NCBI GenBank assembly: GCA_024694785.1
Contig: JAILJL010000172.1
Coordinates: 1 to 11,567 of the forward strand
Direction of reading: 5' to 3'
DNA: 11,567 nucleotides
Source: Lachnospiraceae bacterium
GTDB taxonomy: Bacteria; Bacillota; Clostridia; Lachnospirales; Lachnospiraceae
Part shown: one piece after another, positions 1 to 5,030 of the stretch
Layout of the letters: each line of letters begins with the position of its first letter
Numbering within the stretch: position 1 is the first letter of the stretch
Notes under the pieces: generated by a model
Told to the model about the DNA's origin: nothing
Seen by the model: only the letters and a program-made list of their open reading frames with translations
The model's database searches: none
Translations under genes and position numbers: made by a program

Positions 1-214
1 TACCATTCTCTGCGTTATCAGATGCCTGATTAAGACCACGGATCTGGCTTCTCATCTTCTCAGAAATCTTTAATCCTGCTGCGTCATCGCCTGCACGGTT
101 GATTCTGTATCCACTTGACAACTTCTCTGTTGACTTGGAAAGATCACCTGTAGAGATACCTAACTGTCTGTTTGTGTTCATTGCTGATAAATTGTGCTGT
201 ACTACCATACTCAT
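1..214 (-). CDS. fliC: second flagellin, N-terminal 71 codons only (runs off left edge)
   Basis: This is the start of a second flagellin, the filament subunit exported through the flagellar secretion channel. The 71 readable residues begin [18 protein letters not shown] and include [20 protein letters not shown], the conserved N-terminal D0/D1 helix of flagellins. The sequence differs from the complete flagellin at 575-1657 at only three residues (42 Gly for Ala, 62 Asn for Asp, 69 Glu for Ala). By my count the DNA differs at 19 of 213 positions, mostly silent, and the first 20 codons are identical. The start is fixed by AGGAGG at 223-228, 8 bases upstream of ATG. The gene lies downstream of the first flagellin in the same direction, beyond a probable terminator, and has its own leader with a putative CsrA hairpin. 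The C-terminal part is outside the window, so its total length and variable domain are unknown. Confidence 0.95.
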
Positions 215-222
215 AAAATTTT

Positions 223-256
223 CCTCCTTGAAAATATTTTTCGGCTTCCTTGCCGA
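223..256 (-). promoter_or_regulatory. putative CsrA two-site operator and ribosome site of the second flagellin
   Basis: Read on the minus strand, TCGGC (256-252) and GCCGA (245-241) form a 5-bp stem around the hexaloop AAGGAA (251-246), which carries the ANGGA core typical of CsrA sites. About 20 bases downstream, CAAGGAGG (230-223) is the ribosome binding site and contains a second AAGGA. Known CsrA repression of flagellin (hag) in Bacillus subtilis uses two sites, one overlapping the Shine-Dalgarno sequence. The match to that layout is seen in the sequence. Binding is inferred. Confidence 0.6.
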
Positions 257-429
257 TGATTGAGTTTCTTGCCGTAAATTGATACCACAAATAAAACTCG
301 GTCTTCGTTATTTAATTGTAGTGTAGTGAATTATGCAAGAGAAACTTCCTGCTAACTGATTCGTAGAATTTAAGTCCACCGGATACACCTATCCGTATGT
401 AACTTGCAATATAGAGATACTGCTTATGA

Positions 430-457
430 TATTCGGCTTCATCCTTGAATCCAATTA
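430..457 (-). promoter_or_regulatory. candidate SigD (sigma-28)-type promoter for the second flagellin
   Basis: On the minus strand TAAT (457-454) is followed after 16 bases by GCCGAATA (437-430). The sigma-28 consensus is roughly TAAA, 15-16 bases, GCCGATAA, so both boxes match partly and the spacing fits. Sigma-28 control of flagellins is established knowledge. The site itself is a by-eye match. It would give an unusually long leader of about 210 bases. Confidence 0.35.
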
Positions 458-488
458 TTAGGTACGCTTCCTTGCGTATTATTATAAT

Positions 489-528
489 AACACATCTTGG
501 CCGGCCGCGCAACCGGCCAAGGCGTGTT
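489..528 (-). terminator. strong palindrome after fliC, probable transcription terminator
   Basis: TTGGCCGG (497-504) and CCGGCCAA (513-520) form a perfect 8-bp GC-rich stem around an 8-base loop. Outer bases 489-496 and 521-528 extend it to about 16 bp with one mismatch. On the minus strand it is followed by the T-rich ATTATTATAAT and lies about 47 bases beyond the fliC stop, as expected for a terminator. The T-run is interrupted, so the fit is good but not perfect. On the plus strand the hairpin is followed by TTTTTCACATTTTTTT, but no plus-strand gene exists to terminate. Confidence 0.55.
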
Positions 529-532
529 TTTC

Positions 533-576
533 ACATTTTTTTAAAATGTCTTGAGAAAGCTTGTAACCGCAAGCTT
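533..576 (-). repeat. two small inverted repeats at the fliC 3' end
   Basis: AAGCTTG/CAAGCTT (557-563 and 570-576) forms a 7-bp stem with a 6-base loop, and the fliC stop codon (575-577) sits largely inside it. Next, ACATTTT/AAAATGT (533-539 and 543-549) forms an AT-rich 7-bp stem. Together with the 489-528 palindrome the flagellin transcript would end in three consecutive stem-loops. A role in 3' stability is an inference. Confidence 0.4.
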
Positions 577-1657
577 AACGGATTAAGTTAAGTACGCCCT
601 GAGTTGACTGGTTAGCCTGAGCGAGCATTGACTGTCCTGCCTGAGCAAGGATGTTGCTCTTGCTGTAAGCTACCATTTCAGAAGCCATATCAACATCGCG
701 GATCTGGCTCTCAGCTGCCGAGGTGTTCTCAGATGCTGTATCAAGGTTTGCTATTGTATGCTCAAGTCTGTTCTGAAGAGCACCGAGTGCTGATCTCTGG
801 CTTGATACTGAATTAATAGCTGCCTGAACCTTAGACAATGTCTGGTTAGCTACTGTAAAGTTATCAACTGCTACCCTTACGCACTGCTTAAGTGATGTTA
901 ACTTGCCACCTGTATTAGCTACACTATGGAATCCCTTAGCGCTTGCTACAGCTGTCTTAACCTTGTCAAGAGTTGTATATACGCAACCGGCGTATACATA
1001 CTTGCCACCGGATGTCTTAACATCTGCTGTATTCTGTGTGTAAAGTACATTCTTTGCTGCATCAAATGCTGCCGACTTTGTTGTGAATCCCTTTACAGAC
1101 TGACCATTAACTGCTGCACCGTAAGTTACGAAAGATGTAACCTTAAGTCCGATGTTCTCAGCGTCCATGTTCTTAATCGTAATTGCAATGTTCTGACCAA
1201 CATTGGCACCGATCTGTAACTTAGTATCCTTCAATGTACCATCAAGAAGATTCTTCTTGTTGAACTGGGTTGTTGAAGAGATTCTATCGATTTCTTCCGT
1301 AAGTGCCTGTAACTCTTCGTTAATAGCGTCACGGTCGATATCTTCGTTAGTATCGTTAGCGCCCTGTACTGCTAACTGGTTCATTCTCTGAAGGATAGCG
1401 TGGGTCTCGTTAAGAGCACCTTCTGCTGTCTGGATAAGAGAAATACCGTTTGCTGCATTGTCAGATGCCTGATCAAGACCACGGATCTGGCTTCTCATCT
1501 TCTCGGAAATCTTCAATCCTGCTGCATCATCTGCTGCACGGTTGATTCTGTAACCGCTTGATAACTTCTCTGTAGACTTAGATAAATCACCTGTGGAGAT
1601 ACCTAACTGTCTGTTTGTGTTCATTGCTGATAAATTGTGCTGTACTACCATACTCAT
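575..1657 (-). CDS. fliC: flagellin, filament subunit
   Basis: This is a complete 360-residue flagellin, the exported protein that polymerises into the flagellar filament. The N-terminal D0/D1 helices span about residues 1-165, with [20 protein letters not shown] at 33-52 and LQRMNQLAVQGAND at 89-102, the region that in other flagellins is recognised by TLR5. A short variable region of about 100 residues (roughly 168-270) is followed by the C-terminal D1/D0 helices (LEHTIANLDTASENTSAAES, ending VLNLIR). It is shorter than enteric flagellins because the outer domains are small. Two cysteines, Cys225 and Cys259, lie in the variable region, which is unusual for flagellins. The start is set by CAAGGAGG at 1666-1673. 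The gene follows the chaperone genes after a 170-base leader. Its leader carries a CsrA-like hairpin, so post-transcriptional control is likely. Confidence 0.98.
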   Translation of the reverse strand: MSMVVQHNLSAMNTNRQLGISTGDLSKSTEKLSSGYRINRAADDAAGLKISEKMRSQIRGLDQASDNAANGISLIQTAEGALNETHAILQRMNQLAVQGANDTNEDIDRDAINEELQALTEEIDRISSTTQFNKKNLLDGTLKDTKLQIGANVGQNIAITIKNMDAENIGLKVTSFVTYGAAVNGQSVKGFTTKSAAFDAAKNVLYTQNTADVKTSGGKYVYAGCVYTTLDKVKTAVASAKGFHSVANTGGKLTSLKQCVRVAVDNFTVANQTLSKVQAAINSVSSQRSALGALQNRLEHTIANLDTASENTSAAESQIRDVDMASEMVAYSKSNILAQAGQSMLAQANQSTQGVLNLIR

Positions 1658-1665
1658 AATATTTT

Positions 1666-1702
1666 CCTCCTTGAAATTAAATTGTTACGGCGTCCATGCC
1701 GT
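1666..1702 (-). promoter_or_regulatory. putative CsrA two-site operator and ribosome site of fliC
   Basis: On the minus strand ACGGC (1702-1698) pairs with GCCGT (1691-1687) around the hexaloop ATGGAC (1697-1692), which has the ANGGA core. The ribosome site CAAGGAGG (1673-1666) lies about 20 bases downstream and holds a second AAGGA. The same structure occurs before the second flagellin, with the outermost pair switched from A-T to T-A, which is a compensatory change. CsrA repression of flagellin is established in Bacillus subtilis. Its operation here is inferred from this architecture and from csrA and fliW lying nearby. Confidence 0.65.
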
Positions 1703-4242: not shown

Positions 4243-4653
4243 CTATCTCTTCTCATCTACCATAATTCCGGCCATCTCCCAAGCCTTGGCGATCAAGTCA
4301 AGGGTCTTCTCTGCCGGGAATTCCTTTACTACTTCTTTCGTATCCTTATTAAGGATCTTAATTGTCATACGACCTGTCTGCTCGTGAATACCGAACTGAA
4401 CGGTCTTATTTGCGTTCTGCTTATTAATCTCGTCCACTGCTCTCTTAATAGCCTCTGCAGCCTTGGAGTCGTTAATTTCAACGTCGCTATTCCTTTGATT
4501 ACCGGTGATTTCTACCGCCTTTGAAATAGACTTTTCTGCGACTTCCGGTGTATCCATAGACTTGTTTACAGTGTCTATTGTCGGCTTAACTGAACTTGCT
4601 GCATTACTCTGATAAGATGCATTGTTAATCGAATTAATTTTTTCAATTGACAT
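4243..4653 (-). CDS. flaG: FlaG family flagellar protein
   Basis: This 136-residue protein has a low-complexity, Ser/Asn-rich N-terminal half (about 1-60) and a conserved FlaG domain at about 65-136. The domain contains TVQFGIHEQTGRMTIKI (84-100), then a KDTKEVVKEFPAEKTLDL segment and GIMVDEKR at the end. FlaG is linked to filament length control in some bacteria, and its biochemical role is poorly defined. It opens the flaG-fliD-fliS operon, with a ribosome site ACGGAGGTGA at 4661-4670. Its 161-base leader has a promoter-like sequence and a hairpin with a GGA hexaloop, so it may share CsrA control with flagellin. Confidence 0.93.
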   Translation of the reverse strand: MSIEKINSINNASYQSNAASSVKPTIDTVNKSMDTPEVAEKSISKAVEITGNQRNSDVEINDSKAAEAIKRAVDEINKQNANKTVQFGIHEQTGRMTIKILNKDTKEVVKEFPAEKTLDLIAKAWEMAGIMVDEKR

Positions 4654-4660
4654 AAGATTT

Positions 4661-4713
4661 TCACCTCCGTGTGAATCATCCTTACCTTTTGATTACCCAC
4701 TTCCTTATGGGCA
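4661..4713 (-). promoter_or_regulatory. flaG leader hairpin with GGA hexaloop plus two more GGA motifs (putative CsrA site)
   Basis: On the minus strand CCCAT (4711-4707) pairs with GTGGG (4700-4696) around AAGGAA (4706-4701), the same hexaloop as in the second flagellin leader. Flanking bases extend the stem to 7 pairs with G-U wobbles that are mismatches on the plus strand. Downstream follow TAAGGATG (4684-4677) and the ribosome site ACGGAGG (4670-4664), each with ANGGA. Three spaced GGA motifs ending at the ribosome site suggest a CsrA target. Confidence 0.5.
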
Positions 4714-4814: not shown

Positions 4815-5030
4815 TTAGAAGAGATCTGCCAACTTGTCGATACCTTCGTTCTTCATCGACTCCTCGTTCTCTTTCTGAATCTGTAAGTAAATTTCTTTTC
4901 TATAGATAGTTACGTCCTTCGGCGCCTGGATGCCGATCTTGACCTGATCGCCCTTAACCTCAAGAACAGTAATCTCTACATTGTTGCCGATAACTAAGGC
5001 TTCGCCTTTCTTTCTGGTTAATGCCAGCAT
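4815..5030 (-). CDS. csrA: CsrA translational regulator
   Basis: CsrA is a small dimeric RNA-binding protein that blocks translation by binding GGA motifs near ribosome sites. In the flagellar circuit of Gram-positive bacteria it represses flagellin synthesis. The product has 71 residues with the canonical start [20 protein letters not shown], the [20 protein letters not shown] core with Arg44 (a key RNA-contact residue, as are Leu4 and Arg6), and a C-terminal helix extension. Asn55 is present, and I recall that the equivalent residue in Bacillus subtilis CsrA matters for FliW binding. The ATG lies one base after the fliW stop. Its ribosome site AAAGGAGG is inside the last codons of fliW, so the two are translationally coupled. 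Likely targets in this window are the fliC, second-flagellin and flaG leaders. Confidence 0.98.

Follow-up and report, generated by a model that had tools for sequence, protein, structure and literature searches.

The closest described relatives of the flagellin leader studied here come from three bacteria, and we summarize them from the accessible portions of the published reports. In Bacillus subtilis, the hag leader carries two CsrA sites (BS1 and BS2), the downstream one lying over the Shine-Dalgarno sequence (SD), and FliW antagonises CsrA (PMC7652899, PMC6529632, PMC8523840). The flaA 5' untranslated region of C. jejuni forms two stem-loops (SL1 and SL2), each with ANGGA in the loop and the second over the ribosome site, with compensatory changes in relatives; this layout is backed by gel shifts and mutants, and the flaG leader is also bound by CsrA, placing flaG among the CsrA targets of that species (PMC4894983). 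For fliC of C. difficile, which has both FliW and CsrA, two hairpins (CBS1 and CBS2) have been predicted, one of them over the SD and the other upstream of it (PMC8523840, PMC11898703), and in a reporter regulation was kept when the upstream site was deleted, the SD site alone being needed (PMC11898703). The available text of a 2013 paper on Eubacterium and Roseburia motility mentions that csrA lies at the locus, deals with promoters and reports two consecutive flgK copies (PMC3720852). CsrA sites in Lachnospiraceae flagellin leaders were not described in the literature that we searched, which mostly lay outside subscription journals and is thus weak evidence of absence.

The window, by which we mean the whole stretch of 11,567 nucleotides that was analysed, belongs to an assembly of 214 contigs that totals 1.43 Mb and is 69% complete. 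Its nearest named relatives are Lachnospiraceae metagenome-assembled genomes, some of them sampled from the omasum of goats or the rumen of buffalo. On its minus strand lie two flgK-like genes, flgL, fliW, csrA, flaG, fliD, fliS, a FlgN/FliT-like gene, fliC and a second flagellin gene, the names flgK and flgL resting on position and by-eye sequence reading. The features on which our argument draws are as follows.

1..214, minus strand: second flagellin gene, 5' part, truncated at the contig edge; 96% identity with fliC residues 1-71
218..235, minus strand: second flagellin, predicted site 2 around the SD, hairpin ATTTTC-AAGGAG-GAAAAT; in the MFE, pair probability 0.55-0.72
241..256, minus strand: second flagellin, predicted site 1, hairpin TCGGC-AAGGAA-GCCGA; held-out model match at 212-258, 49.3 bits
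463..478, minus strand: predicted additional GGA hairpin, TACGC-AAGGAA-GCGTA, at a distance upstream of the second flagellin; weak model matches (first model 16.5 bits, held-out model 10.0 bits)
575..1657, minus strand: flagellin gene fliC, 360 aa; PF00669 and PF00700 matches
1657-1655, minus strand: fliC start codon, ATG, read from the sequence
1663..1676, minus strand: fliC, predicted site 2, SD mini-hairpin TTTC-AAGGAG-GAAA; pair probability 0.55-0.74
1666-1673, minus strand: CAAGGAGG, with the second AAGGA within the SD, read from the sequence
1687..1702, minus strand: fliC, predicted site 1, hairpin ACGGC-ATGGAC-GCCGT, with GGA in a C-G closed hexaloop; pair probability 0.90-1.00, stem covarying in relatives
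4243..4653, minus strand: flaG, PF03646; followed by fliD, fliS and the FlgN/FliT-like gene
4660..4675, minus strand: flaG leader, predicted hairpin TTCAC-ACGGAG-GTGAA with the SD in its loop; pair probability 0.82-0.95
4694..4713, minus strand: flaG leader, predicted upstream GGA hairpin TGCCCAT-AAGGAA-GTGGGTA; pair probability 0.85-0.99
4815..5030, minus strand: csrA, 71 aa, the proposed repressor; PF02599, 93.5 bits
5032..5493, minus strand: fliW, the proposed CsrA antagonist, adjoining csrA; PF02623, 121.2 bits
7274-10994, minus strand: two flgK-like genes in a row, differing in sequence and named by eye

Like hag of B. subtilis, the window leader has two GGA sites, of which the downstream one covers the SD, in company with fliW; unlike hag, it has another sequence, and the window is predicted to hold two operator-bearing flagellin genes as well as a flaG operator. 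The likeness to C. jejuni flaA extends to two GGA-loop hairpins, the second over the SD, and to a covarying stem, whereas flaA differs in having a 45-nt leader, a third GGA that forms the second codon and, in the portions of the report available, an mRNA that titrates CsrA (PMC4894983). As in C. difficile fliC, an upstream hairpin is paired with an SD hairpin, and csrA and fliW are both encoded. Given that C. jejuni and C. difficile have this same layout, the window leader would be a further example of a known circuit.

In the fliC leader, the stem ACGGC/GCCGT and the hexaloop ATGGAC on which the original prediction was built are present on the minus strand from 1702 to 1687 with a predicted pairing of 0.90-1.00 (hairpin 1), and the second AAGGA, said to overlap the ribosome site, is likewise found, within CAAGGAGG at 1673-1666. 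The distance between hairpin and CAAGGAGG had been put at about 20 bases and is in fact 13, with 25 nt from GGA to GGA. The earlier reading overlooked the SD mini-hairpin, which in the predicted ensemble places the fliC SD in a hexaloop shaped like that of hairpin 1, and also the double hairpins of the second flagellin (218-256) and of flaG (4660-4713). Rfam gave one sub-threshold match, away from the leader, when the whole window was searched up to an E-value of 5, eight matches below the gathering score in window positions 200-600 with lax filters, and none above the gathering score in the loci of 10 relatives.

Leaders for comparison came from flagellin loci in two sets of genomes, the named ones and 150 sampled from the family. 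The 220 raw matches fell to 184 once identical leaders were removed, to 160 when an N-terminal flagellin pattern excluded 24 (FlgL and false starts, along with L071, apparently a real flagellin), to 159 after one of less than 90 nt was set aside and to 149 after 10 near-duplicates were dropped. A strict hairpin 1, defined as a hexaloop with GGA at loop positions 3-5 on at least 4 bp upstream of the SD, occurred in 102 of these 149 leaders, against 1.2% of dinucleotide shuffles. The remaining 47, which include nine of 18 from the window's own genus and at least one row (an L102 entry) that looks like FlgL, lacked it. Broken down by hand-assigned group labels, the strict hairpin was found in 9/18 leaders of the window's genus, 24/38 of other named Clostridia-type genomes, 43/52 of family genomes, 20/27 of Bacilli, 3/10 of Actinomycetota, 1/2 of Spirochaetes, 1/1 of Chloroflexi and in the one divergent flagellin (1/1), encoded on contig C86 in the window's assembly. 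As controls, 210 other open reading frames with a strong SD, taken from the window and from loci L039-L117 and some of them possibly not genes, yielded three strict hairpins, one before a flaG-like frame. When loops of 4, 5, 7 or 8 were admitted as well, the total rose to 115 of the 149 leaders.

Because the strict search itself requires GGA, we repeated the search without reference to it. Hairpins with a hexaloop, at least 5 bp and two G-C pairs were carried by 99 of the 149 leaders, and GGA stood at loop positions 3-5 in 87 of these 99, with any other triplet there three times at most. This result bears the weight of the argument for the loop, since the anchoring used in the alignments described below fixes GGA and loop conservation in them therefore proves nothing.

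For covariation, leaders were anchored blind to the stem, on the ANGGA nearest the SD, giving 113 distinct sites from the 149 leaders. Stem positions 1-5 of hairpin 1 were paired at 104, 100, 100, 96 and 85 of these sites, compared with means of 74, 63, 46, 51 and 47 under permutation; the highest counts that any of 1000 permutations reached were 85, 75, 62, 65 and 63. The SD mini-stem paired at positions 2, 3 and 4 in 114, 93 and 74 of 132 leaders (permutation maxima 103, 89 and 72), and over the same 132 leaders pairing at position 1 and at the outer positions was not beyond all permutations. In an alignment of 30 rows picked by loop-to-SD spacing alone, 93.7% of cells were paired, with 43 doubly changed cells versus 8.4 in shuffles and a covariation of 0.434 versus 0.154, the shuffles, like the permutations, being tests that ignore the relatedness of the sequences. 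Structures slid along this alignment did far worse, and the 30-row result matches what had been counted before on 34 and on 28 rows. Our first alignments had omitted two of the 30 rows (L020 and L093, which have no clean stem) and had shortened rows L041 and L042; the result holds with both omitted rows restored. Most of the signal comes from hairpin 1, as three of the four SD stem pairs are invariant and the fourth fails in 9 of the 30 rows. The comparison with relatives to which the original prediction had pointed came out in its favour: the stem covaries there, and the loop GGA is strongly preferred in hairpins picked without it; the stem of hairpin 1 thus appears to be conserved by compensatory change with its loop GGA kept, and its covariation implies selection on this hairpin.

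Covariance models gave a measure of specificity. The first model, R1, included both window leaders and four rows from their own genus, and the held-out model, R2, was built from 28 leaders of other genera with no row from the window's genus. With R2, the second flagellin leader scored 49.3 bits and the fliC leader 44.2 bits (E-value for the window 1.2e-9), and the next-best match in the window was the flaG leader at 11.1 bits, leaving both flagellin leaders ahead by 33 bits. R1 gave 54.4 bits and, for fliC, 54.3 bits, with the next match in the assembly at 20.4 bits among the best 150 of 1178 candidates; these 54-bit scores are partly so by construction, as the model was built with the window's own leaders. 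R2 was run over the window and 11 further loci, and on loci of the window's genus it gave hairpin-bearing flagellin leaders 35.0-49.3 bits and others 13.6-21.0 bits or no match, the weakest match (L042, 13.6 bits) being counted irrespective of the gene behind it. In seven genomes of the genus, all 12 R1 matches with an E-value below 0.05 precede flagellin open reading frames, among the best 150 of 1015-2782 candidates scored per genome, so that lower-ranked sites may be missed.

The arrangement recurs elsewhere in the window. Compared with hairpin 1 of fliC, that of the second flagellin has its outer pair changed on both sides and a different loop, with GGA kept. Downstream of csrA in the loci that were read, the window included, lie 13 genes of about 120-145 codons, picked outside the window by size and position; nine of them are preceded by such an SD hairpin with a stem of 4 bp or more, which the other four (L052, L062, L066 and L067) lack. 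From their leader sequences, the second flagellin would be under the same CsrA control as fliC, and so, probably, would flaG.

CsrA and FliW, the regulatory parts of the Hag-FliW-CsrA partner switch, are both encoded in the window, as adjacent genes, and the CsrA gene is where the original prediction had located it. The best Protein Data Bank matches of the two proteins are two chains of one entry, 5dmb: FliW matches 5dmb_A with an E-value of 3e-13, and the alignment of CsrA with 5dmb_D is free of gaps over residues 2-58 and has at position 55 an Asn that may matter for FliW binding. Arg44, a residue with a role in RNA binding, is common to the window CsrA and to 1y00, a solved CsrA with which it aligns ungapped. 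The term Asn55 is absent from the accessible text of one FliW-CsrA paper that was searched for it. Among the 150 family genomes sampled, CsrA scored above the cut-off in 80 of the 82 with flagellin (43/44 and 37/38) and in none of the 68 without (two sub-threshold matches), 48 of these 68 being classed as flagellin-less by elimination from the sample listing. The two flagellin-bearing genomes with no CsrA match are G002 (94% complete) and G137 (81% complete), and in G143, counted among the 80, the matching protein is a divergent paralog taken up below. A search for FliW in 44 flagellin genomes matched it in 42. As CsrA stands above the cut-off only alongside flagellin in this sample, it looks here like a flagellar rather than a global carbon-storage regulator.

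The fliC observation is confirmed. Our results show the leader sequence and how it is predicted to fold, that the structure is conserved, covaries and is enriched among flagellin leaders, and that CsrA occurs together with flagellin. We consider it very probable that the leader is a two-hairpin CsrA operator belonging to the known flagellin-FliW-CsrA circuit, in which CsrA would repress when export stalls and FliW would relieve the repression; CsrA binding, repression and FliW gating are what we infer from B. subtilis, C. jejuni and C. difficile. Translational repression of this type, lifted by FliW, has been described for hag and flaA (PMC7652899, PMC6529632, PMC4894983) and argued for C. difficile fliC (PMC8523840, PMC11898703). 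A CsrA homodimer, with its two RNA sites, would grip the hexaloop of hairpin 1 and the SD hexaloop 25 nt downstream, and the bridging dimer would keep the 30S subunit off the fliC SD. While flagellin is being exported, FliW would be free to bind CsrA and the leader would be released; with export stalled, flagellin would sequester FliW and CsrA would repress.

Short stems are common, and a loose scan of both window strands returned 55 GGA hairpin foldings (alternatives included), so a chance inverted repeat deserves consideration. Its probability is nonetheless negligible: hairpin 1 occurs in 102 of 149 leaders as opposed to 1.2% of shuffles, the window leaders stand 33 bits above all else in the window under a model that never saw their genus, and the shuffles, the anchored permutations, the held-out scores and the 30-row covariation together rule chance out. 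A protein-independent element of translation or stability in a highly expressed mRNA, for instance a standby site for ribosomes or a block to 5' RNase, with the GGA incidental or serving as an auxiliary SD, would fit a hairpin just upstream of a perfect SD and the fact that some flagellin paralogs manage without it. We regard such an element as improbable, because a stability hairpin needs no hexaloop GGA in a fixed place, yet 87 of the 99 strong hexaloop hairpins have one, and because CsrA is kept with flagellin and was not found above the cut-off without it.

A narrower version of the operator reading accepts that CsrA acts and holds that the SD site alone matters, hairpin 1 being a helper or a relic. 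The C. difficile fliC reporter, as described in the accessible text, is a precedent (PMC11898703), and since that reporter required the SD site only, a need for hairpin 1 here is not guaranteed. In the window's own assembly, a pair of flagellin genes on contig C118 keeps linear GGA motifs and CAAGGAGG without hairpin 1 (held-out model 21 and 15 bits), as do their counterparts in L039 and L040. Covariation in hairpin 1, which implies selection on it, speaks against this version, and we judge it unlikely, though less so than a protein-independent element. For the C118-type paralogs, either their control is less tight than in the two-hairpin operator that we favour or hairpin 1 is dispensable. 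By eye, the C118 pair has sigma-28-like promoters, and the fliC1 promoter is just a poor sigma-28-like match.

More speculatively, paralog operators may be graded, from the full double hairpin of the two window flagellins to the linear GGA and SD of the C118 pair, so that FliW-CsrA sets the order or ratio of flagellin isoforms, and in relatives the closing pair of the loop may be a specificity code separating two CsrA circuits, a possibility that we put forward tentatively and with more doubt than belief. If true, FliW-CsrA would govern isoform order or ratio beyond the total amount of flagellin.

A divergent CsrA-like protein of 83-107 aa gave strong matches in 8 of the 150 family genomes (11 copies), with weak matches in G131 (its ordinary CsrA) and G057 (a third type); none was found in the window's assembly, which is 69% complete. 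Its gene lies 76-197 nt upstream of flagellin in 10 of the 11 copies, and the eleventh, in G008, ends at a contig edge; the loci beside flagellin are L178-L181, L183-L187 and L251, to which L112 is added from a named genome. In all 11 readable flagellin leaders beside a divergent csrA, L112 included, the GGA hexaloop is closed by A-T. The 113 anchored sites, some of these leaders among them, have C-G as the closing pair in 81 cases, the usual one, and A-T in 14. Two observations speak against a strict code: genomes whose only CsrA is the ordinary one (G083, G096, G115 and G146) can have A-T closure too, and in the Alkalicoccus locus L105 the flagellin gene that follows a CsrA-like paralog has a C-G closed loop. 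In G143 (locus L186; 98% complete), only the divergent paralog was found, with no match to ordinary CsrA or to FliW, so that its flagellin circuit would have to run without FliW. The spacers between divergent csrA and flagellin often share a CCTAGGG motif (L112, L180 and L183-L187), for which there was no Rfam match.

With covariation in support, these results extend the circuit of flagellin, FliW and CsrA to a clade within the Lachnospiraceae, some of whose named relatives come from animal guts. The window leaders match no Rfam family; the covariance models built here could seed one. The spacer between the two window flagellin genes (334-573) is identical to that of L043 at 228 of 240 positions, for borders that were chosen after the profile had been seen, compared with 77% at fliC third codon positions and 27 of 40 in the flanking stretch 294-333. 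A strong match to it was found in one of six other genomes of the genus. Positions 312-512 were considered as a gene and rejected, having no Pfam match and a frame that, by eye, meets a stop in L043. Several GGA motifs and a strong GC hairpin lie within the spacer (334-574), and we mention purely as a remark that a CsrA sponge RNA might lie there, between fliC1 and fliC2.
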